DNA of 24,806 nucleotides. Origin: a virus. Shown here piece by piece: positions 1 to 24,806 of this stretch. The stretch covers positions 1 through 24,806 of the IMG/VR virus record IMGVR_UViG_3300032246_001380; one strand, given 5' to 3'. The notes under the pieces were generated by a model. The model saw nothing but the letters and a program-made list of their open reading frames with translations. It searched no databases and was not told where the DNA came from. Each line of letters opens with the position of its first letter. Position 1 is the stretch's first letter. A program made the position numbers and the translations under genes.

Positions 1-75
1 CCAAAATGTCCAGCGGAGTTTTGGAAATTGGTTTGGAATTTCCCTAACTTCTTATTTTCTAACAAGATATAGAAA
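1..75. repeat. Terminal direct repeat, left copy
   Basis: These 75 bases are identical to the last 75 bases of the window. The simplest reading is that a circular or circularly permuted genome was assembled with a k-mer-sized overlap, so the unit genome is about 24,731 bp. A true short terminal repeat is less likely given HK97-type terminase genes. The segment holds two overlapping inverted repeats: TCCAAAA/TTTTGGA (one arm starting at the last base before the right copy) and GGAAATT/AATTTCC (23-29 with 37-43). It is non-coding, between the late terminator and the first early gene, so it may also carry the early promoter, but I cannot pick out a convincing -35/-10 pair. Confidence 0.9.
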
Positions 76-116
76 CGAAAAAACGGCACCCTAGGAATCT
101 TTCCTAAGGCACCGTC
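76..116 (-). terminator. Intrinsic terminator closing the late operon
   Basis: Read on the minus strand, a 15-bp stem (ACGGTGCCTTAGGAA, loop AGA, TTCCTAGGGTGCCGT) is followed directly by TTTTTT. Three of the pairs are G-U wobbles on the minus-strand RNA and become A-C mismatches on the other strand, so the signal is oriented for minus-strand transcripts. It lies about 85 bases past the last late gene and should separate late transcription from the early genes that begin across the circle junction. Confidence 0.88.
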
Positions 117-199: not shown

Positions 200-499
200 C
201 TAGGAAAGGGACTCGAGGATAATTTTTACTGCCAATTTTAGGACGATACCCAAAGCGAGCGAGGGAAAACCCACAGCTTCCTTTGGTCCCTGGTTACCCA
301 ACAATGCCTCAATTGCTTCCACAATTGCACCATCTGAGCTGTCACCAATTCCTTGTTGAATCGGGAAGCCTTGCGCCAAGCCGTAGCCCAGAATGTTCCA
401 AGCTGCGTGAACTCCCTTGCTGGAATCCACTTTTCCCCGGACCACATCAAGCAAAGTCATTAGCGCATCAGTCGACAAAGTAAGCGGATAATCTACCAT
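200..499 (-). CDS. Hypothetical protein, end of lysis region
   Basis: A 99-residue protein of unrecognised family. The start is supported by AGGAG six bases upstream of ATG. The N-terminal two thirds look soluble and helical. The last 25 residues (about 74-97) are hydrophobic with scattered lysines and could be a membrane-associating amphipathic helix. It is the last gene of the late transcript, ten bases downstream of the cysteine protease gene, so a lysis accessory role is possible from position only. A small virion or lysis-associated protein is an equal alternative. Confidence 0.7.
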   Translation of the reverse strand: MVDYPLTLSTDALMTLLDVVRGKVDSSKGVHAAWNILGYGLAQGFPIQQGIGDSSDGAIVEAIEALLGNQGPKEAVGFPSLALGIVLKLAVKIILESLS

Positions 500-508
500 T
501 TGAATCTC

Positions 509-1432
509 CTAAGTGTGTAAAGTCCAATCAAGTGATTTTTCAGGCCGCGCAGGGAAGCCATCGAAAGCCGAAAACGCCCACGAATCCCCATAGTTCAACA
601 TCCTGTCAATTATGCGTGCATCTGCCCAGAATCCTTCAGACCCTGGATTCCCTGCACCAACAGGGCCCGTATGGGCTGCTCCGCCCCAGCTATTGTCAAT
701 GCGACCACCTTCCCTGATGCCAGTCTGATAACCACATAGACACATGCAATGGGACCACGAACCAACAGCACGGGCGAACCCTTCGCCATCCCTCACCATT
801 GCAAATCCCTGATCCGAACAAATGCTAATTCCAAATCCTGAAGCCAGCGCCCGTTTCGCTTGTTCCCAATTTGTGATCTTTGTGATGGCTTTAATCGAAT
901 GAAGCTGGGCGATGCTCTCAAGATTGTTGGGAACACCAGACGAACCCCAGGTTCTGGAGAGGCTGGCGGAATATTGGGACAGGTCGTATCCTTCATGTTT
1001 GCCCCTTTCAATGATCCCAAAATCCTTTACCCATTGGGCAGCCCATGCACCTACGGAACCATCCCCACGCCCCAACTTGCCCTTGCCGATCTCAACCCTG
1101 GAACCGCCATAGATCGGCTCGGTCGCAACGGTGCGGAACTGTTCTTGTTCGCCTGCCGCGATTTCAGCGCACATGGTGTATTCGATGGCCCGGGCCGTGC
1201 CAAAGCTCACGCAAGTTCCGATATTGCCCTGATTGCGGGGAGGAAGCAAACCGCCCGTTACCTTCTGCGCAGCATCCCACAAAAACACATGGTCAGGAAG
1301 TGGACTTGAATCCTGACCAGCAGGGGTTTCCCCAAAGGATGCGATTGGCTGTAGCGCGGCAATTGCCGCAACTGCCTTTGGGTCGTCAATCCATCCAGGG
1401 TAATCCTGTGGGGCGTCAAAGGGTTCGCTCAT
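509..1432 (-). CDS. Papain-like cysteine protease (peptidase family C1)
   Basis: A 307-residue protein with the full papain active-site layout. Gln68 (oxyanion hole) is six residues before Cys74 in NQGNIGTCVSFG, the same spacing as Gln19/Cys25 of papain. The catalytic His is His228 in WSHCMCLCGY, and Asn247 is followed by SWGG, matching the family NSWG signature. There is no signal peptide and only about 67 residues precede the active-site Gln, so there is no classical inhibitory prodomain. AAGGA precedes the ATG. It follows a holin-like gene and an exported protein gene, and no muramidase, amidase or transglycosylase is recognisable anywhere in the genome, so I infer it may be the lysis enzyme. 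A virion protease that opens the host surface is the main alternative. Confidence 0.88.
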   Translation of the reverse strand: MSEPFDAPQDYPGWIDDPKAVAAIAALQPIASFGETPAGQDSSPLPDHVFLWDAAQKVTGGLLPPRNQGNIGTCVSFGTARAIEYTMCAEIAAGEQEQFRTVATEPIYGGSRVEIGKGKLGRGDGSVGAWAAQWVKDFGIIERGKHEGYDLSQYSASLSRTWGSSGVPNNLESIAQLHSIKAITKITNWEQAKRALASGFGISICSDQGFAMVRDGEGFARAVGSWSHCMCLCGYQTGIREGGRIDNSWGGAAHTGPVGAGNPGSEGFWADARIIDRMLNYGDSWAFSAFDGFPARPEKSLDWTLHT

Positions 1433-1435
1433 GGA

Positions 1436-1939
1436 TTAGATTCCTTTTAGGATGTTAATCAATTTTTGGAGCAGGGATTTGGCCGCATTGGCATCAAGAA
1501 TGGCATCGGGATCTGTGCCCAGACTGGATTGGATTTCCTGCGCAATGCGGTCACGCAATGGCCTGAGATCGGCGGGTTTTAGCGTTTGAGATTTGCTCAA
1601 GGATTGCGCCAGGTCCGCCACGGTCGTTGCCTTGTCGATGCCATCAAGGGCTGTTTGGTAACTTTTTATCAGCGCCATCAGTTTGGCTTTTTTATTTGCG
1701 TCCTGGTCTGCACCATAAATCGCTTTGAGCCCATCGGCCAAATCATCACCAGGAGGAACAAAAGGATCCGCATCAACCGCAGGAATCACCAGATTAGCAT
1801 TTGGAGATTTGATCAAAACAGAACCATCAGCCAGCACCGTAACCGTAACCTGTCCCTGAACAATCTTTGTGCCTTTACCCGTAATTTCTATTTGTGGAGG
1901 AATGGCAAGAATAAGAAATGCCAGCGCAGATTGAATCAT
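1436..1939 (-). CDS. Putative exported protein of the lysis region
   Basis: A 167-residue protein that starts with a short hydrophobic stretch (residues 1-14, MIQSALAFLILAI) resembling a signal peptide or membrane anchor with little positive charge. A beta-rich segment (about 17-52) is followed by a helical, charged C-terminal half. The start ATG overlaps the stop of the upstream holin-like gene (ATGA), which implies translational coupling. Its position between a holin-like and a protease gene suggests an envelope function, for example spanin-like, but it has no recognisable spanin features and no lipobox. I do not recognise the family. Confidence 0.75.
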   Translation of the reverse strand: MIQSALAFLILAIPPQIEITGKGTKIVQGQVTVTVLADGSVLIKSPNANLVIPAVDADPFVPPGDDLADGLKAIYGADQDANKKAKLMALIKSYQTALDGIDKATTVADLAQSLSKSQTLKPADLRPLRDRIAQEIQSSLGTDPDAILDANAAKSLLQKLINILKGI

Positions 1940-2223
1940 TGTTGATTATCCTTTTTCATGTCGCCTAGTGCGTTGCTAATTTCATTGACTCTATCGCCAA
2001 TGGTTTCCACCTTTTTGTTGGTGTTTTCTACCTTTTCATCGATGTGGGCGGTGGTCGCCTTGAGCCCGTGAATGTCCTGACCGGCAACGGCCAGAAAGTT
2101 TTCCAGGGTCGAAATGAACTTGAGGCCCGCATCCCGAAACGGAATCAGGAAATACCAACCCAGGAAAATGATGATTGCCACGGGGAAGCCGACGCGCTCG
2201 ATGATTTGGATGATTTCGGTCAT
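1936..2223 (-). CDS. Holin-like small membrane protein
   Basis: A 95-residue protein with one strongly hydrophobic segment (about residues 11-29), then a coiled-coil-like charged region (about 50-90) with regular spacing of I/V/L. Single-span proteins with a C-terminal coiled coil next to lysis genes resemble BhlA/UviB-type holins. AAGGAG lies upstream of the ATG. It is coupled to the following exported-protein gene by an ATGA overlap and sits two genes before the cysteine protease. The holin role is inferred from topology and context. A membrane-anchored virion protein cannot be excluded. Confidence 0.72.
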   Translation of the reverse strand: MTEIIQIIERVGFPVAIIIFLGWYFLIPFRDAGLKFISTLENFLAVAGQDIHGLKATTAHIDEKVENTNKKVETIGDRVNEISNALGDMKKDNQQ

Positions 2224-2634: not shown

Positions 2635-3389
2635 TACGCGTAGACTCCCCATTTGGCGTTGAGATAGGACAGGACCAAGGCCTGGGTCGTGACATCGTGG
2701 GCCGATTGGAACCAAAGGGTTTCGGCGAAATCACACCCGGAAAAGGCGCTATCGCCCTTGAACAGGACATCCCAGGAGCCGTTGGTCGCGTTGGCGGAGC
2801 TTTGGGGCGAGTTGGTTGCGGCGACATTGTTTCTTTTGAGCGTGCCGGTCGTGCCATCGGTGCTGGCATTAAGCAGGACAAAGGAGCTGTAGACATCCAT
2901 GGTGGGCGATGTAAAAACATTCAAAGAGGTATTTGCGGCAGGTTTGAATGGGTAATAAGTTTTTGAGTCGATGTAATTTTCGAACAGATACCGATTGGCA
3001 TTTGCATTGACCCCGGCCAATTCCATCACAGCGGCGGAACTGGCTTTTTTGACGACCAAATAGATGGCAAATGGGGCGTTCATGGTCAGCGTCGAGATGG
3101 TCATGAACGAGCTGGTGCCATTGGTGCGCACGATGTTTTTGCTGTTTTGGATCGCGGTCTTGAGCGTTGGCTTGTTGGAGCCGCTGGTCTGGCTTGCGTG
3201 GCGATTGTTGCCCGATTTGTCCGTCCAATAGCCGACCGGGTCACCATCGGCTGTCGCAGCAGATCCACCATTGCTTTGAAATAGGGTTGCGGAGTCTGCG
3301 GCATCAAGCCACAGCGCAGGTGAAAGCGAAAGCGGGTTAAAACTGGTGCCGCCGGAGCGTCGCCAGAGGCCTAGATCGAGGCTAATCAT
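2634..3389 (-). CDS. LamG/concanavalin A-like virion protein, adhesin candidate
   Basis: A 251-residue protein. After 20 residues it shows LSPALWLDAADSATLF, then GYWTDKSGNNRHA, and near the C-terminus FAETLWFQ and LSYLNAKWGVY. This layout is typical of LamG/concanavalin A-like jelly-roll modules found in surface and phage proteins, where they bind carbohydrate or protein. The start is preceded by an AAGGGG stretch. It lies at the end of the tail gene block, just before the lysis genes, as receptor-binding genes often do. I infer a receptor-binding or tail-decoration role. The LamG-like fold is fairly sure, the ligand is unknown. Confidence 0.8.
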   Translation of the reverse strand: MISLDLGLWRRSGGTSFNPLSLSPALWLDAADSATLFQSNGGSAATADGDPVGYWTDKSGNNRHASQTSGSNKPTLKTAIQNSKNIVRTNGTSSFMTISTLTMNAPFAIYLVVKKASSAAVMELAGVNANANRYLFENYIDSKTYYPFKPAANTSLNVFTSPTMDVYSSFVLLNASTDGTTGTLKRNNVAATNSPQSSANATNGSWDVLFKGDSAFSGCDFAETLWFQSAHDVTTQALVLSYLNAKWGVYA

Positions 3390-3401
3390 GAGTAGCCCCC
3401 C

Positions 3402-3671
3402 TTAGGAGATAGCGACGATAAGCGTAGCCGTGGTGCTGGTGGAGCGGACCCTTGAAACCCGCAAAGGAAGCAGCGTCCCCGCAGGAACACCAGAAAATAA
3501 GACGGTTGAACCATTTCCCATAATCACAGAAATGTTCCCTGCACCTCCAACCCAAAGAGCGCGGGAAACATTGGTTAGGTCCGTAGAGTCTGATGGTGTC
3601 ACAGCTTCCGCAATGGATGCTGGTGATGTGGTGCCAACTTGGTTTGTCGAAAAATTGTCGGTTGCTGGCAT
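3402..3671 (-). CDS. Small phage structural protein with VGGAGN/VPAGT motifs
   Basis: An 89-residue, Ser/Thr/Ala-rich, beta-type protein. The segment from about residue 35 (SRALWVGGAGNISVIM) to FSGVPAGTLLPLRVSRV matches a small protein that recurs in many tailed phages of diverse hosts, usually beside tail or neck genes and annotated only as a structural or hypothetical protein. GGAGAA precedes the ATG. It sits between the HNH nuclease gene and the LamG-like gene. A virion decoration or tail-tip role is likely from context but not proven. Confidence 0.8.
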   Translation of the reverse strand: MPATDNFSTNQVGTTSPASIAEAVTPSDSTDLTNVSRALWVGGAGNISVIMGNGSTVLFSGVPAGTLLPLRVSRVRSTSTTATLIVAIS

Positions 3672-3693
3672 GATTGGTTCTCCGTTTGGTAAA

Positions 3694-3987
3694 TTATACT
3701 TGTTTTCTGTTGGCTTTGTCTATTGCCGTTTTTTTGCTGTGACAAGAAATGCAAAGGCTTTGGAGGTTGTTTGGATCAAGCCTGGCACCTCCATCATTTA
3801 TTGGCTTTATGTGATCTACTTGATTTGCGCCGTTACCGCAACTAGCGCAGAATGGGTCTGTTGCCAATTTCCATTTCCTAAGTTTTTGCCAAGTGTGGTC
3901 GTATCCTCGCTCGGATGTGGAAAGATCCCTAGGCGCTTCCTTGCGCTTAGGGCCTGGATTTCTATGGATGTTCCTGCGCTGAACCAT
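3694..3987 (-). CDS. HNH endonuclease, HK97 gp74-like
   Basis: I choose the ATG just after the stop of the upstream gene, giving 97 residues. A longer version starting at 4017 would overlap that gene. The protein has the SERGYDHTWQKLRKW lead-in, a zinc-binding CxxC (DPFCASCG), the VDHIKPINDGG core with the catalytic His, an Asn in PNNLQSLC, and a second CxxCH. This is the layout of the HK97 gp74 family, which nicks DNA and in HK97-type phages works with terminase in cos packaging. Those genes are usually next to terminase. Here it is embedded among tail genes, so it may instead be a mobile homing nuclease or a displaced packaging gene. No strong ribosome binding site is visible. Confidence 0.85.
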   Translation of the reverse strand: MVQRRNIHRNPGPKRKEAPRDLSTSERGYDHTWQKLRKWKLATDPFCASCGNGANQVDHIKPINDGGARLDPNNLQSLCISCHSKKTAIDKANRKQV

Positions 3988-3989
3988 TC

Positions 3990-4505
3990 TTACGCATTGC
4001 CTGCAATTAGAATGCAATAGGTGACAGATGCGGCACCAGGATTGTTAATTTTTAAGATGTCCGCGGTTCCAGCGGTAACACTCCAACCCGATGCTCCAGG
4101 ATGGTAAAGTTCCAGGCTGTCAAAAATGTCGATGGTGCCTGCGGAACTTAATGGCCCAACAAATGGATTTGTGGCATTGCCCAGTACCAATTTATTGGTC
4201 CCATTTGCGCTGGCGCTGATCAACGCTATTGCAATGTATTTGATCCCTGTAAATGTCAGGCTGTTTCCAAAGGGATCCAGGAGGGATCCAGCCAAATCCA
4301 GGTTGTCTGCGGCACCCGCGGCTAAAGTGCGGTATGCCCTGTACCATTTGTTGCATTGCCCAGCACCTGTGCCATCGGTAATAGTTCTGCTTAGTGCGGG
4401 GAAGGAATTGCTTCCACTTGTCACGGCATCTGTGGTAATGCAAATGGTGCTGTCGTTGGTTAAAGTCCCCTGAACATTAAGGGATCTGGTTAGGCTCAAT
4501 GTCAT
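3990..4505 (-). CDS. Hypothetical virion protein (171 aa)
   Basis: A 171-residue protein rich in Ser, Thr, Gly, Asn and hydrophobic beta-branched residues, as expected for a beta-sandwich virion component. There is no membrane segment or catalytic motif. AGGAGG lies upstream of the ATG. It belongs to a run of beta-rich genes after the tape measure and precedes the HNH nuclease. Tail-tip or fibre function is inferred from position and composition only. Confidence 0.72.
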   Translation of the reverse strand: MTLSLTRSLNVQGTLTNDSTICITTDAVTSGSNSFPALSRTITDGTGAGQCNKWYRAYRTLAAGAADNLDLAGSLLDPFGNSLTFTGIKYIAIALISASANGTNKLVLGNATNPFVGPLSSAGTIDIFDSLELYHPGASGWSVTAGTADILKINNPGAASVTYCILIAGNA

Positions 4506-11422: not shown

Positions 11423-12754
11423 TTAAGCCTGGGTAAGCTTCTTGATTGCGGCAGATTGAACCACTTTGGAATCGAACCGTTCAACTGCAAGGAAGCTTGC
11501 TGCGTTGCTGGTGAACAAGAAATCATCCGAACGACGAATGACAATTGGGCCTGCATCCCTGATGTAGAATTTGGACATGTCACCAAAAATACCGGTAATC
11601 AAACCGGTGGTGATGGCGCTGTTCATGTTGTTATTAACAATGACAGGATACCCAAGCAATTTAGGTGCAACGCTTTCTGCGTAACCCAAATTCCTTTGGA
11701 TCAAATTCAAGCCAGTTGAATCCTGCAATTTGAGCAGATAAGTCCAAACGGTTTGGTGAAACATAAACGAAGCCTGTGGTTGATAAGCAGCGTCAAGGCT
11801 GTTTACCAAATCATAGATTTCATTGATGGTAATGGCTGTGGCGCTTGCAGTTGTCTTGCCTGCTGATGCACCAACGGTGACGCCTTGTGGTTGGCTGGAA
11901 CCGGTTCCGGTTGCAAAAGCCGCGGCTTCAGATCGGCCAAGCCTTTCACCCAGAAGCTCGCCAACAATTGCACCCAAATCAAGGCCGGTGTCCTGGAGCA
12001 ATTCCAAGGAACAATTAACCACCGATTTGTAGGAATAGGCGCCAAAGGTAACTTGCCCAAGCGTGAAGTCAGTTGCGCTGGTGGCGGTGTTTTCTGCTAC
12101 CAAAGCACCTGTATTGCTGGTGTCGTCGACCGTCGGCATCGGCATGGAATTGCCGCTATCGGTGCGGATAACACGAGACACACCACGCAGGGGATTAAAT
12201 GCAAGGCGCTTTTTCTCAAGCTCTGCAAGGAACCCTTGAGGAATCATGTAACCGCCAGCAGAACCGCTGGTGGATTGCGCGCGTTGTTCTTCAGTCGGAT
12301 TTGGATTTACAAAAATAGGACCATCAAGATTCAACCCGCTGCGATGTGCAGCGGCGCGTTGTTCGTTGGTCGCTTCTTTGCCCATACACCAGCCACGGAA
12401 AGCCATGGCGGAATCGCGGATGGATTGGCGATCGTTGTAATCGCGGACAAATCCAGGAGCAGGATTTACCTTGCGGGTTTGAATCCGTTTGTTGAATTCG
12501 CTGCGCAGGTTGCCACTTGGCCTAGAGCTCATGTCCATTGCCGGTTCCATTGGCATTGTGACATCAGCGGCTTCCGTGGTTTCCAACACTTGGATTCGTG
12601 CATCCAAATCATCTACGCGAGCAATGAGGTCATCGAATTTTGCCATTTCTTCAGGTGTCATTTCCCGCTTTTCCGGACCATCAGTAACGGCCAGAATTTT
12701 AGCGGATTCATCCATAAACTGGGCGCGTTGTGCCCGCAGTTCAGCAATCATCAT
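11423..12754 (-). CDS. Major capsid protein, HK97 fold
   Basis: A 443-residue protein from an ATG with GGAG seven bases upstream, just past the protease stop codon. A longer version starting at 12835 lies inside the protease gene and is rejected. Residues 1-70 form a charged coiled coil (the scaffolding-like delta domain, with AKFDDLIARVDDLDARIQVL) that the prohead protease should remove. The body starts around SGSAGGYMIPQGFLAELEKK and includes ATGTGSSQPQGV, both typical of HK97-type capsid proteins. It is flanked by the protease gene and an intrinsic terminator. Confidence 0.93.
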   Translation of the reverse strand: MMIAELRAQRAQFMDESAKILAVTDGPEKREMTPEEMAKFDDLIARVDDLDARIQVLETTEAADVTMPMEPAMDMSSRPSGNLRSEFNKRIQTRKVNPAPGFVRDYNDRQSIRDSAMAFRGWCMGKEATNEQRAAAHRSGLNLDGPIFVNPNPTEEQRAQSTSGSAGGYMIPQGFLAELEKKRLAFNPLRGVSRVIRTDSGNSMPMPTVDDTSNTGALVAENTATSATDFTLGQVTFGAYSYKSVVNCSLELLQDTGLDLGAIVGELLGERLGRSEAAAFATGTGSSQPQGVTVGASAGKTTASATAITINEIYDLVNSLDAAYQPQASFMFHQTVWTYLLKLQDSTGLNLIQRNLGYAESVAPKLLGYPVIVNNNMNSAITTGLITGIFGDMSKFYIRDAGPIVIRRSDDFLFTSNAASFLAVERFDSKVVQSAAIKKLTQA

Positions 12755-12756
12755 AA

Positions 12757-13329
12757 TCAACTCCGTGGCGGGTTGCGCCGTTTGAGAAAGGACAGAAGAC
12801 AGCGTTTGCGCCTGGTGTCCAATGTGGACTGCCAAGCGGTGAGCGAGCGCAAAGCGGCAGATGTGCCACTAGGATAAGCCGGATCCCCAACAATGGAAAT
12901 TTCCCGCAAATCCACATCATGCAAAGTTCTGATTCTAATTTTTGTTTCGGGATCCGTGGACCATTTATCAGACCTGGTAAAGAATCCAAATGAACAGCTT
13001 GTTACATCACCTCTTGCCATCAATTCCACCAGATCATTTGCGTAACTGGTATTGGGCAATGTCAGATCGAATTCCAAACCCCGATCATTTGAGGATAGTT
13101 TCAATGTTCCAGCGGAAATCCTGCCCAGAATTTTAGCGGAGTCATGATTGTAAAGGGCTCTGATGTCGTTTTCACCAATGCTTTTTATGAATGCCGTTGG
13201 TGCTATTTTCTCCTTGAATCCCCCAAGGTCGCCAGAAAGGGTTTCATATGCTGCCGCAATGCCAACAATACGCCGCCCGGAAGGATTAACTTCCAGGTTT
13301 CGTAGTTCAATATTGCGTATTTCAGTCAC
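12757..13329 (-). CDS. Prohead maturation protease, HK97 family (U35)
   Basis: A 190-residue protein. It starts with a strand-rich segment (IRNIELRNLEVN, RIVGIAAAYET) and carries the family catalytic residues: His62 in ALYNHDSAK, Ser113 in SCSFGF and Glu143 in LREISIVGDPAYP. It should cleave the capsid delta domain during prohead maturation. The C-terminal 35 residues are basic and may be a scaffold-binding or self-cleaved tail. It lies between portal and capsid genes as in HK97. Confidence 0.93.
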   Translation of the reverse strand: MTEIRNIELRNLEVNPSGRRIVGIAAAYETLSGDLGGFKEKIAPTAFIKSIGENDIRALYNHDSAKILGRISAGTLKLSSNDRGLEFDLTLPNTSYANDLVELMARGDVTSCSFGFFTRSDKWSTDPETKIRIRTLHDVDLREISIVGDPAYPSGTSAALRSLTAWQSTLDTRRKRCLLSFLKRRNPPRS

Positions 13330-13341
13330 TTTTTTAACCCT

Positions 13342-14901
13342 TTAATTTGGCTGGTTTGGTGGCTGTATTGGTTCAATTGGGTTAATAATCATGTTATCGA
13401 AAATACTATTCAAAATTGTTTTGTCAAGTGCTGGGAATGCCGCTTCTGCAAGGGCTTTGGCTGTCAATTTGCTTACCAAACCTTGCCCAACCTGGAGCAC
13501 AATTTCAAGCAAGCTTGCCACCTGTGCCCCGTTCAAGGCCTCCGCGGGAGCAGCCACCTGGTCAGTTTGTTCCTGTGCTGGTTGCGGTTCTGGTGTTGTG
13601 GTTTGCAAAGGATCCGTAGGCAATGGTGTCGCTGGTGTAATTGGTGTGGTTGGTGTAATAACACCCAATGTTGGGGATGTGATTGGTGCCGATGTTGCAC
13701 CCGTTGCCTGACCAATGGAAGCCATGTTAAGTGGCTGCATGTAAGTGTCGCCACCTTCAATGGCAGGAAGGTTTTCCAGCTTTCTAATGTCGTTAACGGA
13801 AAACCAGCCCCAATTGCGAGCAATGGCGTAGGAATTGTAGCGGGCTGCAATGTTGCCACGAAGCAAACCCTCCACTTGATGTTCGCAAAAATACTGCTTA
13901 TTTGGAAATAGTTTTTTATTGTTTTCCTGTTCAATTCTTACTAGCCATGGTCGTATGGTGTTTACCACATAATCAATTGCGTCATCTTCAGGGTTTGTGA
14001 ATGCGGTTGCTCCAGAAACCCGTAGCCGATTCAATGAGATGTTGAGCCACCTTGCCACTTCCTCAATTGTAAATTTTCTGGACTCGAGGAATTGCGCATC
14101 ATCATTGTTGATGGAATAGGCGCTAACATCCATTCCTTCCTCGAGGATGGCAACTTTGGCGGTGTTCTCAACTCCCTGGTGAATTCGTTCCCAACCTTCC
14201 CGCAGGCGCTTTACCGCTTCCTCTCCGAGTCGACCAGGGTGCTTAATTACAACACCAGGGCGGGAACCATTACCAAAGAATTTCCCTGCGTGCCTGTCGT
14301 AAACAATGCCCAGCCCTAGGGATTCTCTTGCCATCTGCAAAACAGATTTGCCCCAAAATCCATCGAATGCAAGTCCGCGATAGTGGAGGATGTCCCGCGG
14401 ATCCATGTCCACTTGAGCGCCGCTAATGGGTTGAATCCGATAGAATAAATTGCCTTCCTGGTCCCGCCAAGCATTAACAGAATCGTAAGCCAAAGGCCAA
14501 ATTGCTACAGGATAATCCCTAATCTCTGCATCATTCCATTCAATTTCCGCAAATGAATTACCATGCAACATGGATTGGGCTTGGAGTCCTGCACGAACAA
14601 CAGATGCTGTGGATTCATAGTTTGGGCTGTCGTGCAATAAATCAAATGCTGGGTGACTTAATGCCAGCTTCCTACCATCATCTTCTGTGCGCTCATAAAC
14701 ATTTAACGGAAGGGTGCCAATTGTTTCAGAAACAATCCTGATGCCATCGAAAAATGCTGCGACTGTAAGTGCTGATGTTTCATTAACGGAAACATTTGCA
14801 CCAGAATAACCACTCAATACCGTGTAACCAATAGGCTGATTCTTGATCAACGGCACTTGACCTGCGCGGTTTTCGTTATCTGCCGTTGAAATCCAGTCCA
14901 T
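13342..14901 (-). CDS. Portal protein, HK97 family
   Basis: A 519-residue protein with HK97 portal features: an N-terminal region with TVAAFFDGIRIVSETIGTLP, then SMLHGNSFAEIEW, FDGFWGKSVLQMARESLGLG and ARWLNISLNRLRVS. The core ends near residue 385. It is followed by a Pro/Thr-rich low-complexity linker (about 390-440) and a helical segment EALNGAQVASLLEIVLQVG seen in many portals, with a Pro-rich end. It forms the dodecameric ring through which DNA enters. AGGGGAAATAA precedes the ATG. Confidence 0.93.
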   Translation of the reverse strand: MDWISTADNENRAGQVPLIKNQPIGYTVLSGYSGANVSVNETSALTVAAFFDGIRIVSETIGTLPLNVYERTEDDGRKLALSHPAFDLLHDSPNYESTASVVRAGLQAQSMLHGNSFAEIEWNDAEIRDYPVAIWPLAYDSVNAWRDQEGNLFYRIQPISGAQVDMDPRDILHYRGLAFDGFWGKSVLQMARESLGLGIVYDRHAGKFFGNGSRPGVVIKHPGRLGEEAVKRLREGWERIHQGVENTAKVAILEEGMDVSAYSINNDDAQFLESRKFTIEEVARWLNISLNRLRVSGATAFTNPEDDAIDYVVNTIRPWLVRIEQENNKKLFPNKQYFCEHQVEGLLRGNIAARYNSYAIARNWGWFSVNDIRKLENLPAIEGGDTYMQPLNMASIGQATGATSAPITSPTLGVITPTTPITPATPLPTDPLQTTTPEPQPAQEQTDQVAAPAEALNGAQVASLLEIVLQVGQGLVSKLTAKALAEAAFPALDKTILNSIFDNMIINPIEPIQPPNQPN

Positions 14902-14954: not shown

Positions 14955-16481
14955 CTAGAGCATTAAAAATTCTCTTGATTGGTAAACGGATGAACCATCT
15001 AGCCCAGTTGCTTCCGCTTTCCTAGCTCTCGCAAATGCCATAATTGATGATACCGCACAATCAATTCTTTCGACTGATTTACTTTTGGATGGTTTGCAAT
15101 TTCCTGCCGCATCCCGTTCAATTACCACATTATCAATGCACCATCTTAGCACCGCATTTCCATCATGGCTGATTTGCTTTTGTAAAACCGCGGCTTCAAA
15201 ATCTTTGGTAGGAGGTGACATGCTCCGGAATCCCTGCCTGAATTCCGTAATGGTGTAACCTTGATTCTCCAATTTTTGCATTAGAAATTCTGCGTTCCAT
15301 GGATCGACTGCAATTTCCCTAATTTTGAATTCTGCCGCAATTTCCGCAATTCTTTTTAGGATGATTTCATAGTCAACAATTTCCCCTGGTATCACCTCGA
15401 GGAAACCGGCTCGCACAAATTGGTCATACCTAATGCGGTTTGTGTCATTTCTTTTTCCCACCATGGCGGATGTGGTCCACGCAAAGGCCTTCAAATGGAT
15501 CGCACCTGGTAACGGGAATGCCAGCGTGAAGGAAGTTAAATCTTCCCTCGAGGAAAGATCCAAGGCCGCATAGCAAGGGATTTCCTCGAGATTGGTTGGA
15601 TGTGTTTCGCAACTGTTCCATGATTCCGAGCTGATCCATCTGGCCGCGGATTCAACCCATTGGTTAAGATGGTATTGCCGAAATGATTGTTCCCTTGCTG
15701 GATTGTTCTGGGCTTCGTGGCAGGTGTCCCGCAGATATTCCAGGGTAACGGATTTACCTAACCCTGGATTTGCCATTTTCCAGGATGATTCACTTCGCCA
15801 ATCCAATTCTGGTGCTGCTTCGTAAATTATTGGTAGGAATGTTGGATCCACCAATACACCTTCCCTAACCTGTTTTGCGTAATGATACAATTCATAACAC
15901 AATGATCCGCGATCATGACCACTTGTCGATATCATGAATGCTAATGGTTCTGTTCTCGCTCCCATGGATGTTATTAGGGATTCGTAAAGATCCCTGCTTT
16001 TTTGTGTCAACAATTCGTCGAATATTAAAGTGCTTATGTTATGCCCCAGGTTGCCTGCTGCATCAGCCGCAATTACCTTATAAACTGCACCCCTATTGGC
16101 CTCAATATGTCGCCTGTAAACCTTGCATTTTTTTGACAGCACAGGAGAATGAAGCACCATTTGTTTTGCAATATCAAATGCCAATGCCGCCTGGTCAGAA
16201 TCGCAGGCCGCGGAAAGGATTTCCGCACCTGGTTCCTGATCCATGATTAACATGTACAGCGCCACAGCTGCCGCTAATGTGGTCTTGCCATTCTTCCTTC
16301 CAAGCATTACCAATGCTTTTCTGTATTGCCTTTTTCCATTCTTAAGCTTTGTGTTGAATAATGGTTTGATAATATCATTTATTTGCCACTTATCAAGGGT
16401 TAATGGTTTGCCACCTAGTGGCCCTTTGGTATGTGTCAAAAATGTGGCACAGAATTCCTCAAACTTTTTCGATGGCAGCAT
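14955..16481 (-). CDS. terL: Terminase large subunit
   Basis: A 508-residue packaging ATPase-nuclease. The Walker A motif is GRKNGKTT (residues 61-68), Walker B is LIFDE (152-156), and the coupling motif is STSG (185-188). The nuclease domain shows the acidic residues Asp308 (AALDLSSREDL), Asp393 (AVDPWNAE) and Asp474 (ERIDCAVSS). It is of the HK97/Terminase_1 type, which usually goes with cos packaging. AGGA lies seven bases upstream of the ATG, and the previous gene stops nine bases before it. Confidence 0.96.
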   Translation of the reverse strand: MLPSKKFEEFCATFLTHTKGPLGGKPLTLDKWQINDIIKPLFNTKLKNGKRQYRKALVMLGRKNGKTTLAAAVALYMLIMDQEPGAEILSAACDSDQAALAFDIAKQMVLHSPVLSKKCKVYRRHIEANRGAVYKVIAADAAGNLGHNISTLIFDELLTQKSRDLYESLITSMGARTEPLAFMISTSGHDRGSLCYELYHYAKQVREGVLVDPTFLPIIYEAAPELDWRSESSWKMANPGLGKSVTLEYLRDTCHEAQNNPAREQSFRQYHLNQWVESAARWISSESWNSCETHPTNLEEIPCYAALDLSSREDLTSFTLAFPLPGAIHLKAFAWTTSAMVGKRNDTNRIRYDQFVRAGFLEVIPGEIVDYEIILKRIAEIAAEFKIREIAVDPWNAEFLMQKLENQGYTITEFRQGFRSMSPPTKDFEAAVLQKQISHDGNAVLRWCIDNVVIERDAAGNCKPSKSKSVERIDCAVSSIMAFARARKAEATGLDGSSVYQSREFLML

Positions 16482-16489
16482 TCAATTTC

Positions 16490-16960
16490 CTATGGCATCA
16501 ACTTCAATAATTTGGCGGACATGGAATTATCAGCCACAATTTCCTGTTGCATATCTTCGCCAGTTAATCGGGATGCGCTACGGCTCCGCGGTGTCAGGCA
16601 AAGCTGCCCCAATGTGGTTGCGAGGTCCGATTCTGCCTGCCGAACTTCCGCCAGGATTGGATGAACCATATTGCCGGATGATGTGGTAAATCCGCGGGAT
16701 TTCCCTTGCGTTTTCAGATAGAAACAAACTGCCCAGGATTCACCATCAATTACGGCTTTTTGCAATGAACTTACCGCATTGTCCAGCATGGTTTCCCGAA
16801 CTGTTTCCAGGCATTGATTCAATTCAGGATGTTTTTTTACAAAGCGAAAAATGGTAGTTCTTTCCACGCCAAGCATGCGAGCGGCAGCAGCCATGTTGCC
16901 GAAACATTTCTTTAGAGCTTCATCCACAACAGAAATTGTTAAAGGTGCTCTAGCTCCCAT
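16490..16960 (-). CDS. HTH DNA-packaging protein, terminase small subunit candidate
   Basis: From the ATG that overlaps the end of the Mom-like gene the protein has 156 residues. It begins MGARAPLTISVVDEALKKCF and has a helix-turn-helix, NMAAAARMLGVERTTIFRFV, then KHPELNQCLETVRETMLDNA and AVCFYLKTQGKSRGF. This pattern of HTH followed by a 'A-x-x-x-L-K-T-K-G-K-x-R-G' segment is common in small terminase-like proteins encoded just before large terminase genes. It would recognise the packaging site. A longer version starting at 17053 lies inside the Mom-like gene and is rejected. Confidence 0.82.
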   Translation of the reverse strand: MGARAPLTISVVDEALKKCFGNMAAAARMLGVERTTIFRFVKKHPELNQCLETVRETMLDNAVSSLQKAVIDGESWAVCFYLKTQGKSRGFTTSSGNMVHPILAEVRQAESDLATTLGQLCLTPRSRSASRLTGEDMQQEIVADNSMSAKLLKLMP

Positions 16961-17669
16961 GGCTGCACCCTTCAAGTGTATGGAGCGTTGGGATTGGATT
17001 TGCACCATCCCTTGTGCCATGGATTGGCACCGTGCCGCTATCAGCACTTCCAACGCGTTTTGGATAAGGTTGTTTCAATGGCTGAATTTTTTTCCTCATG
17101 TCTTCATCCAATGGCATCAAATATTTATGCTTGAATCCTGAACTTTCCCTTCTTGCATTTGAATCAACATTTTTCCTAAGCCATGGAATTGATGAGCCAC
17201 CTTTTCCGTGCCGTTTTCCAACTGTCATCGGGTGTGTCTTTTTTCCATTTATATAGTAAACATGAGTTTCTGTCCCGCCAACATAAATCCAGTTTGTCGC
17301 CTGGTAAATTCCTCCATGATGTCCCTGACTTGAATCGGCAAAGGAAACAACTAAACGCAAACCCTTTGCATGACTTTTTAATTTTTTTAAAATGATTGCC
17401 ATGATTCTACTTACAGGTGTTTTATGGTTTGTAAGTGCAATTCTTGTCAATTCACAAACTTGAGTTTGATTTAATCCATATGGTGTTCCAATATTTGGAC
17501 AAGCACCAGATCCAAATAAAACAACCCCAATAAATTTTCCCGATTCCCAAACCCCAAATCTTACGACTTTGCTTTTGGGTATGCATTTACTGTAATGCCA
17601 TTTTTCGCAGGCATATTTTGCTGCTTCTGGTGTAGCCCAATCAATTCGCAATTCACTTGACGAATTCAT
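16950..17669 (-). CDS. Mom-like DNA adenine modification protein
   Basis: A 239-residue GNAT-like protein. It begins around DWATPEAAKYACEKWHYSKC, continues with VRFGVWESGKFIGVVLFGSG, TQVCELTRIALTNHKTPVSR and VVSFADSSQGHHGGIYQATN, and ends with FKHKYLMPLDEDMRKKIQPL. This set of segments is characteristic of phage Mom homologues. Mu Mom converts adenine to N6-methylcarbamoyl-adenine and protects phage DNA from restriction. I infer the same role here. A GTG two codons upstream is an alternative start. It overlaps the ParB-like gene by 17 bases and the next gene by 11, so it belongs to the packaging operon. Confidence 0.85.
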   Translation of the reverse strand: MNSSSELRIDWATPEAAKYACEKWHYSKCIPKSKVVRFGVWESGKFIGVVLFGSGACPNIGTPYGLNQTQVCELTRIALTNHKTPVSRIMAIILKKLKSHAKGLRLVVSFADSSQGHHGGIYQATNWIYVGGTETHVYYINGKKTHPMTVGKRHGKGGSSIPWLRKNVDSNARRESSGFKHKYLMPLDEDMRKKIQPLKQPYPKRVGSADSGTVPIHGTRDGANPIPTLHTLEGCSHGS

Positions 17670-18129
17670 GCCCACACTCTGGACATTTTATTTTTGCTTT
17701 TTCATCAAGAATGCTTTGATCTTCAGCCGTTGCTTTTTCAAAGTTTGGCGGAATAATTCCAGCCTCCTGTGCCATATCTGCAAACATTTGGGACAACGCC
17801 TCGCTTCCCGTATTAACTTCGCGCAACAAGGAATCCAATGCCAGTGCATCGGTGCCAGCCATGGCGGACAATGGATCTAGGGATAACAACAATTTATCTG
17901 CCTCGGATTCCGTGATGTCCAGCACCAGCACCGGAACCTCGACGTCTGGTGTGGATTCGGCGCGCAAATGCCCATCGACCAACATTAGGCTGCCGTCAGG
18001 AAGTTCCCTAGCCAACAAGGCATCAGCGTAACCCACTTCCGCCAGGATCCCTTTCAGCGCATCCTGTTGGGACTGTGGATGGGTCCGCCAATTTTTTGGA
18101 TTGGGCATCAGTTCTGATGCCTTAATCAT
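17653..18129 (-). CDS. ParB-like nuclease-domain protein
   Basis: I favour the ATG with AAGGA seven bases upstream, giving 158 residues. An in-frame ATG eleven codons earlier (18162) is possible. The N-terminal domain has SELMPNPKNWRTHPQSQQ and SLMLVDGHLRAES, the two signature boxes of the ParB/Srx fold (GDGH-type loop). The C-terminus ends CPECGHEF, a half zinc-finger-like knuckle. ParB-like proteins of this size recur in phage packaging regions next to terminase and modification genes. They may bind or nick DNA. This one lacks the HTH of true partition proteins. Confidence 0.87.
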   Translation of the reverse strand: MIKASELMPNPKNWRTHPQSQQDALKGILAEVGYADALLARELPDGSLMLVDGHLRAESTPDVEVPVLVLDITESEADKLLLSLDPLSAMAGTDALALDSLLREVNTGSEALSQMFADMAQEAGIIPPNFEKATAEDQSILDEKAKIKCPECGHEFVK

Positions 18130-23526: not shown

Positions 23527-23730
23527 TTACTCGCTCCTTTGATGTTCATCACGCATAATGATGTAGTCCTGTCGCTCTGCCACCAGTCGCAGTTGGGCGC
23601 GTTTTCCCGTCACACCAACAACCCGAATGTGGAGGATGTCACCTGTCCTGCGATCCACAATTGTTATGCCTTCCCCAATGTTCCGGCTCAGAACCAAACC
23701 GCCCTGGCTGATAATTGCATCATGACTCAT
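23527..23730 (-). CDS. csrA: CsrA-family RNA-binding regulator
   Basis: A 67-residue protein whose residues 11-62 align with CsrA/RsmA: GLVLSRNIGEGITI matches the first strand of CsrA, and DYIIMRDEHQ matches its 'VHREEI' end. Arg16 and Arg60 correspond to Arg6 and Arg44 of E. coli CsrA, the main RNA contacts. It has a 10-residue N-terminal extension not found in typical CsrA. CsrA dimers bind GGA motifs in hairpins near ribosome binding sites, so this copy could alter translation of host or phage messages. GAGGTG precedes the ATG, and it ends one base before the annealing-protein gene. Confidence 0.88.
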   Translation of the reverse strand: MSHDAIISQGGLVLSRNIGEGITIVDRRTGDILHIRVVGVTGKRAQLRLVAERQDYIIMRDEHQRSE

Positions 23731-24731: not shown

Positions 24732-24806
24732 CCAAAATGTCCAGCGGAGTTTTGGAAATTGGTTTGGAATTTCCCTAACTTCTTATTTTCTAACAAGATA
24801 TAGAAA
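24732..24806. repeat. Terminal direct repeat, right copy
   Basis: Identical to bases 1-75 of the window. It marks the closure point of the circular assembly. See the left copy for its inverted repeats. Confidence 0.9.

Follow-up and report, generated by a model that had tools for sequence, protein, structure and literature searches.

A candidate phage lysis cassette with a predicted papain-like protease in a probable planctomycete virus

Phage peptidases of the papain-like type and related lysis modules

Several described systems resemble the locus studied here. Among proteins of the papain fold, the closest are xylellain and the bacterial short C1A peptidases (MEROPS C1; PDB 3ois, and Legionella Lpg2622, 6a0n), which share with our protein the (here predicted) fold, the Gln-Cys-His-Asn catalytic set and a short N-terminal region before the catalytic domain. 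However, the identity is only about 16% in the Foldseek alignment, and no cassette with a membrane-anchored coiled-coil protein and an exported protein accompanies them. C1A genes of the xylellain type in Caudoviricetes have been noted as horizontal transfers (PMC10380794), without a lysis role in the parts consulted, and a survey of viral lytic proteins does not use the word papain (PMC12596118). CHAP and NlpC/P60 endolysins are papain-like-clan cysteine enzymes used by phages to cut wall peptides, whereas the present protein is a predicted full C1 protease with Asn as third residue and no recognised wall-binding domain. The pseudomurein endoisopeptidases PeiW and PeiP of archaeal phages (PMC4592898) offer a precedent for a phage peptidase that lyses a non-murein wall. 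They belong to a different peptidase family, C71, and their substrate is known. Finally, holin-endolysin and SAR-endolysin cassettes also combine a membrane protein with a soluble enzyme, and the N-terminally anchored enzymes lacking a separate transmembrane (TM) gene that we found in chromosomes recall the latter. Here, the enzyme is a predicted protease and its exported partner lacks any Cys. The fold and the kind of cassette are thus already known, but their combination is not described in the open literature that was searched.

We analysed a stretch of viral DNA of 24,806 nucleotides (IMG/VR record IMGVR_UViG_3300032246_001380), hereafter the window. A preliminary description had reported a C1-family protease with Gln68, Cys74, His228 and Asn247 after a holin-like and an exported protein gene, with no peptidoglycan hydrolase visible in the genome, and had proposed an unusual protease-based lysis or entry mechanism fitting a host with a protein-rich envelope. 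The observation itself is confirmed by our analysis. The proposed interpretation is only partly supported, as detailed below.

A conserved gene set around the protease

The window is one strand-coherent tailed-phage genome, in which connectors and tail genes extend from the head genes to about position 4500 and are followed by fibre-like genes (Table 1). Its first and last 75 bases are identical and two relatives (G009 and L001) are contiguous across the junction, which shows that it is a complete genome of about 24.73 kb and not a fragment. The protease gene lies in a cassette that closes the late region, before a terminator-like hairpin.

Table 1. Features of the window discussed in the text (positions are those of the 24,806-nucleotide window).
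Feature	Position	Strand	Description
Terminal repeat	1-75		75-bp sequence repeated exactly at 24732-24806
Hairpin	82-116	-	Intrinsic-terminator-like, 16-pair stem plus T run; longest stem among the hits of the region, whose number is not above shuffles
Small cassette protein	200-499	-	99 aa, conserved; C-terminal hydrophobic helix (KD19 1.93 at residue 76)
Protease	509-1432	-	307 aa, papain-like (C1/xylellain-type) cysteine protease; no signal peptide or TM
Codon of Q68	1229-1231	-	Within the protease gene
Codon of C74	1211-1213	-	Within the protease gene
Codon of H228	749-751	-	Within the protease gene
Codon of N247	692-694	-	Within the protease gene
Exported partner protein	1436-1939	-	167 aa; N-terminal hydrophobic signal plus helical domain; no Cys, so no lipobox
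TM-coil protein	1936-2223	-	95 aa; one TM at about 11-29, then (I/V)P(F/V/L)RD motif and coiled coil; candidate holin
HK97-type capsid	11423-12754
S78 prohead protease	12757-13329
Portal	13342-14901
TerL	14955-16481
Mom-family protein	16950-17675		PF25680, E 1e-54; next to the terminase genes; probable DNA-modification/anti-restriction gene
CsrA-like ORF	23527-23730		Reads like CsrA; one member of the unknown-ORF set matched PF02599

The assignment of the protease rests on sequence and on a predicted structure. The Pfam profile PF00112, the only family matched, hits the protein at 16.0 bits for a cut-off of 20.7, while a 58%-identical family member (L151) passes with 31.4 bits (E 2.6e-7). The AlphaFold model (pTM 0.76, mean pLDDT 65) displays the papain order of elements, with the long helix starting at C74, and a Foldseek search of the PDB returned xylellain (best hit, 3ois, E 2.8e-8, probability 1.00), cathepsins and plant papains. 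In an alignment of 128 distinct homologs, the catalytic Cys (127/127) and His (128/128) are invariant wherever the row covers them, and Asn is found in 122 of 127 rows, being replaced only by Gln in the other five. In one phage (L046), a Hint/LAGLIDADG intein is inserted exactly before the catalytic Cys (QGQVGS-intein-C; L046:1130-3193), in line with the preference of inteins for conserved active sites. A free-standing LAGLIDADG-like ORF follows both there (3307-3918) and in a second phage (L157, 10879-11478) whose protease has no intein. In these larger phages, an ORF that looks by eye like a C39-like cysteine peptidase is also close to the papain gene (L046:3911-4507 and L157:11471-12031).

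The cassette is recurrent. IMG/VR holds at least 211 viral relatives, on contigs from a few kb to 181 kb. A protein search of named phages for the protease returned none, and an alignment of a tail protein was too diverged to scan. In 27 non-redundant viral clusters, the exported gene is adjacent to the protease in 26, a TM-coil gene lies within 9 kb in 20, and the small downstream gene is present in 17. Cellular homologs (41-52% identity) are found in Gemmataceae, where they are sporadic (34 of 95 genomes of the family, up to four copies per genome), and in 10 of 391 other genomes drawn from the phylum. Hence, the host is probably a gemmataceal planctomycete, which remains an inference. A MAG titled 'Bacteroidales bacterium' (JAIXLE010000059.1) falls in the family of Limnoglobus in the same genome search and is probably mislabelled. 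In Gemmataceae, 36 of 43 hits of the exported family lie next to a protease hit, the rest being mostly weak or on short contigs.

The roles of the two partner proteins are less well supported. The term holin-like rests on topology, small size and position, since the TM-coil protein matches no holin family convincingly: the only holin profile match, among weak PHROG hits, is phrog_4898 (E 0.019, over 21 residues only), and none was found in Pfam. Concerning the exported protein, the AlphaFold model of a long homolog (from L046) gives a confident Ig-like domain plus a five-helix domain (pLDDT 91), of which the version of the window keeps only the helical part besides the signal. A spanin was ruled out, as the protein has neither a Cys for an o-spanin lipobox nor the TM plus periplasmic coil of an i-spanin, but only an N-terminal signal. 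Similarly, no chagasin/cystatin-like or propeptide-like protease inhibitor was present among the 50 Foldseek hits displayed, which are mostly generic Ig domains (phage lambda gpV, adhesins, S-layer).

Membrane anchors, a head-only element and the search for a lysin

The topology of the homologs points to an envelope site of action. None of the viral proteases (0/27) has an N-terminal anchor, while chromosomal homologs usually do (28 proteins). No anchored copy has a TM-coil gene nearby (0/28), whereas 21 of 37 soluble ones do (Fisher p 3e-7, uncorrected for kinship). This pattern fits one requirement met in two ways, namely that the enzyme must act beyond the inner membrane. However, the tree contains only about five changes of this trait, too few for a phylogenetically corrected test, and the correlation is suggestive only. 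In a Gemmataceae genome (G065), we also found a head-only element (L094; G065:C10:83500-103000), in which TerL, portal, capsid and two small genes are followed directly by the TM-coil gene and the protease, with no tail genes or exported gene seen. It is possibly a satellite or a gene-transfer-agent-like unit. A protease kept with such a minimal set is easier to read as a release function than as an entry function.

These observations bear on the alternative that the protease is a virion-associated or entry enzyme digesting a host protein layer. Its position downstream of tail-fibre-like genes would be compatible with this view, but the anchors of the homologs, the secreted partner and the element without visible tail genes argue against it, and this half of the earlier proposal has no support from sequence and comparison and appears very unlikely. 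A second alternative is a function in lysogeny or host modification, such as the trimming of surface receptors (superinfection exclusion) or another remodelling of the host surface. In its favour, many anchored chromosomal copies are not near portal or capsid genes, suggesting that part of the family may do something else, several copies can coexist in one genome, a relative (L006) carries an integrase downstream, and the partner of long-form homologs has an adhesin/S-layer-like Ig domain. Three loci (L108, L109 and L053) lie beside tape-measure-like and other tail genes, one of them (L109) also beside an integrase. Nearly every protease-bearing Gemmataceae genome searched has an HK97-type portal/capsid pair of similar score, often just one, which could be a conserved domesticated element or GTA. 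Nevertheless, in free phages the gene lies after the tail-fibre region with a TM-coil gene and without signal peptide or anchor, and it is present in the head-only element. We consider this alternative unlikely as well.

The discovery of a muralytic domain in one of the unknown proteins had been set beforehand as a result that would contradict the proposal. No peptidoglycan-hydrolase domain was found at Pfam and PHROGs sensitivity, either in the window, whose unknown ORFs match no lysin family in Pfam scans (E up to 0.1), or, within a partial coverage of their family matches, among unknown ORFs of relatives. The protease itself carries no known peptidoglycan-hydrolase domain. Moreover, Amidase_2, Phage_lysozyme, SLT and M15_4 are absent from 39 protease-bearing phage records. 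On its own, this absence is weak evidence. Four TerL-related phages without the protease (G527, G530, G532 and G533, with G+C-rich DNA of unknown host and ORFs picked by hand) also showed no Pfam lysin, so the expectation that cousins lacking the protease should have a normal lysin gave no informative contrast. Since about half of the ORFs of the genome have no assigned domain and the host group has peptidoglycan, a diverged, unrecognised hydrolase might perform lysis, with the protease cassette as an accessory for outer-membrane or surface-protein disruption (spanin-like help). We regard this as the strongest of the alternatives, though still unlikely, and the head-only element contains no obvious second candidate.

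A proposed holin-plus-protease model for planctomycete phages

We favour, with moderate confidence, the view that the four genes form a lysis cassette of a planctomycete (probably Gemmataceae) phage, with the protease in the place of the lysin. In this view, the TM-coil protein would be the holin opening the inner membrane at the end of infection. The protease, made in the cytoplasm without a signal, would then reach the periplasm and do the job of an endolysin by cutting the peptide part of the envelope, either wall/outer-membrane proteins or, less expectedly, peptidoglycan peptides. The exported protein would work with it in the periplasm for targeting, activation or restraint. Our analysis establishes the genes, the catalytic residues and the predicted papain fold of the protease, the conservation of the cassette and the lack of a recognisable peptidoglycan hydrolase in a complete genome, while the host, peptidase and holin activities, release to the periplasm, wall cleavage and lysis, the substrate and the role of the exported protein are inferred from sequence and comparison alone. 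The argument from a protein-rich envelope is weak, because DAP-containing, lysozyme-sensitive peptidoglycan was shown biochemically in Gemmata obscuriglobus (PMC4432640), a polymer that a C1 protease is not known to cut. In addition, a planctomycete phage has been reported to leave cells without lysis (PMC10945688). More tentatively, a whole class of planctomycete phages might lyse by proteolysis of envelope proteins rather than by peptidoglycan hydrolysis, using a TM-coil holin, a dedicated exported partner and a C1 protease even though the host makes peptidoglycan, with host genomes keeping membrane-anchored versions of the same module.

How planctomycete phages leave cells with an unusual envelope is essentially unstudied, and no characterised lysis system was found in the open literature searched. 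A recurrent protease-based cassette would be a new type of phage lysin and would make the question of whether the load-bearing layer is protein or peptidoglycan testable with one enzyme. It would also explain why annotation pipelines find no endolysin in these phages.
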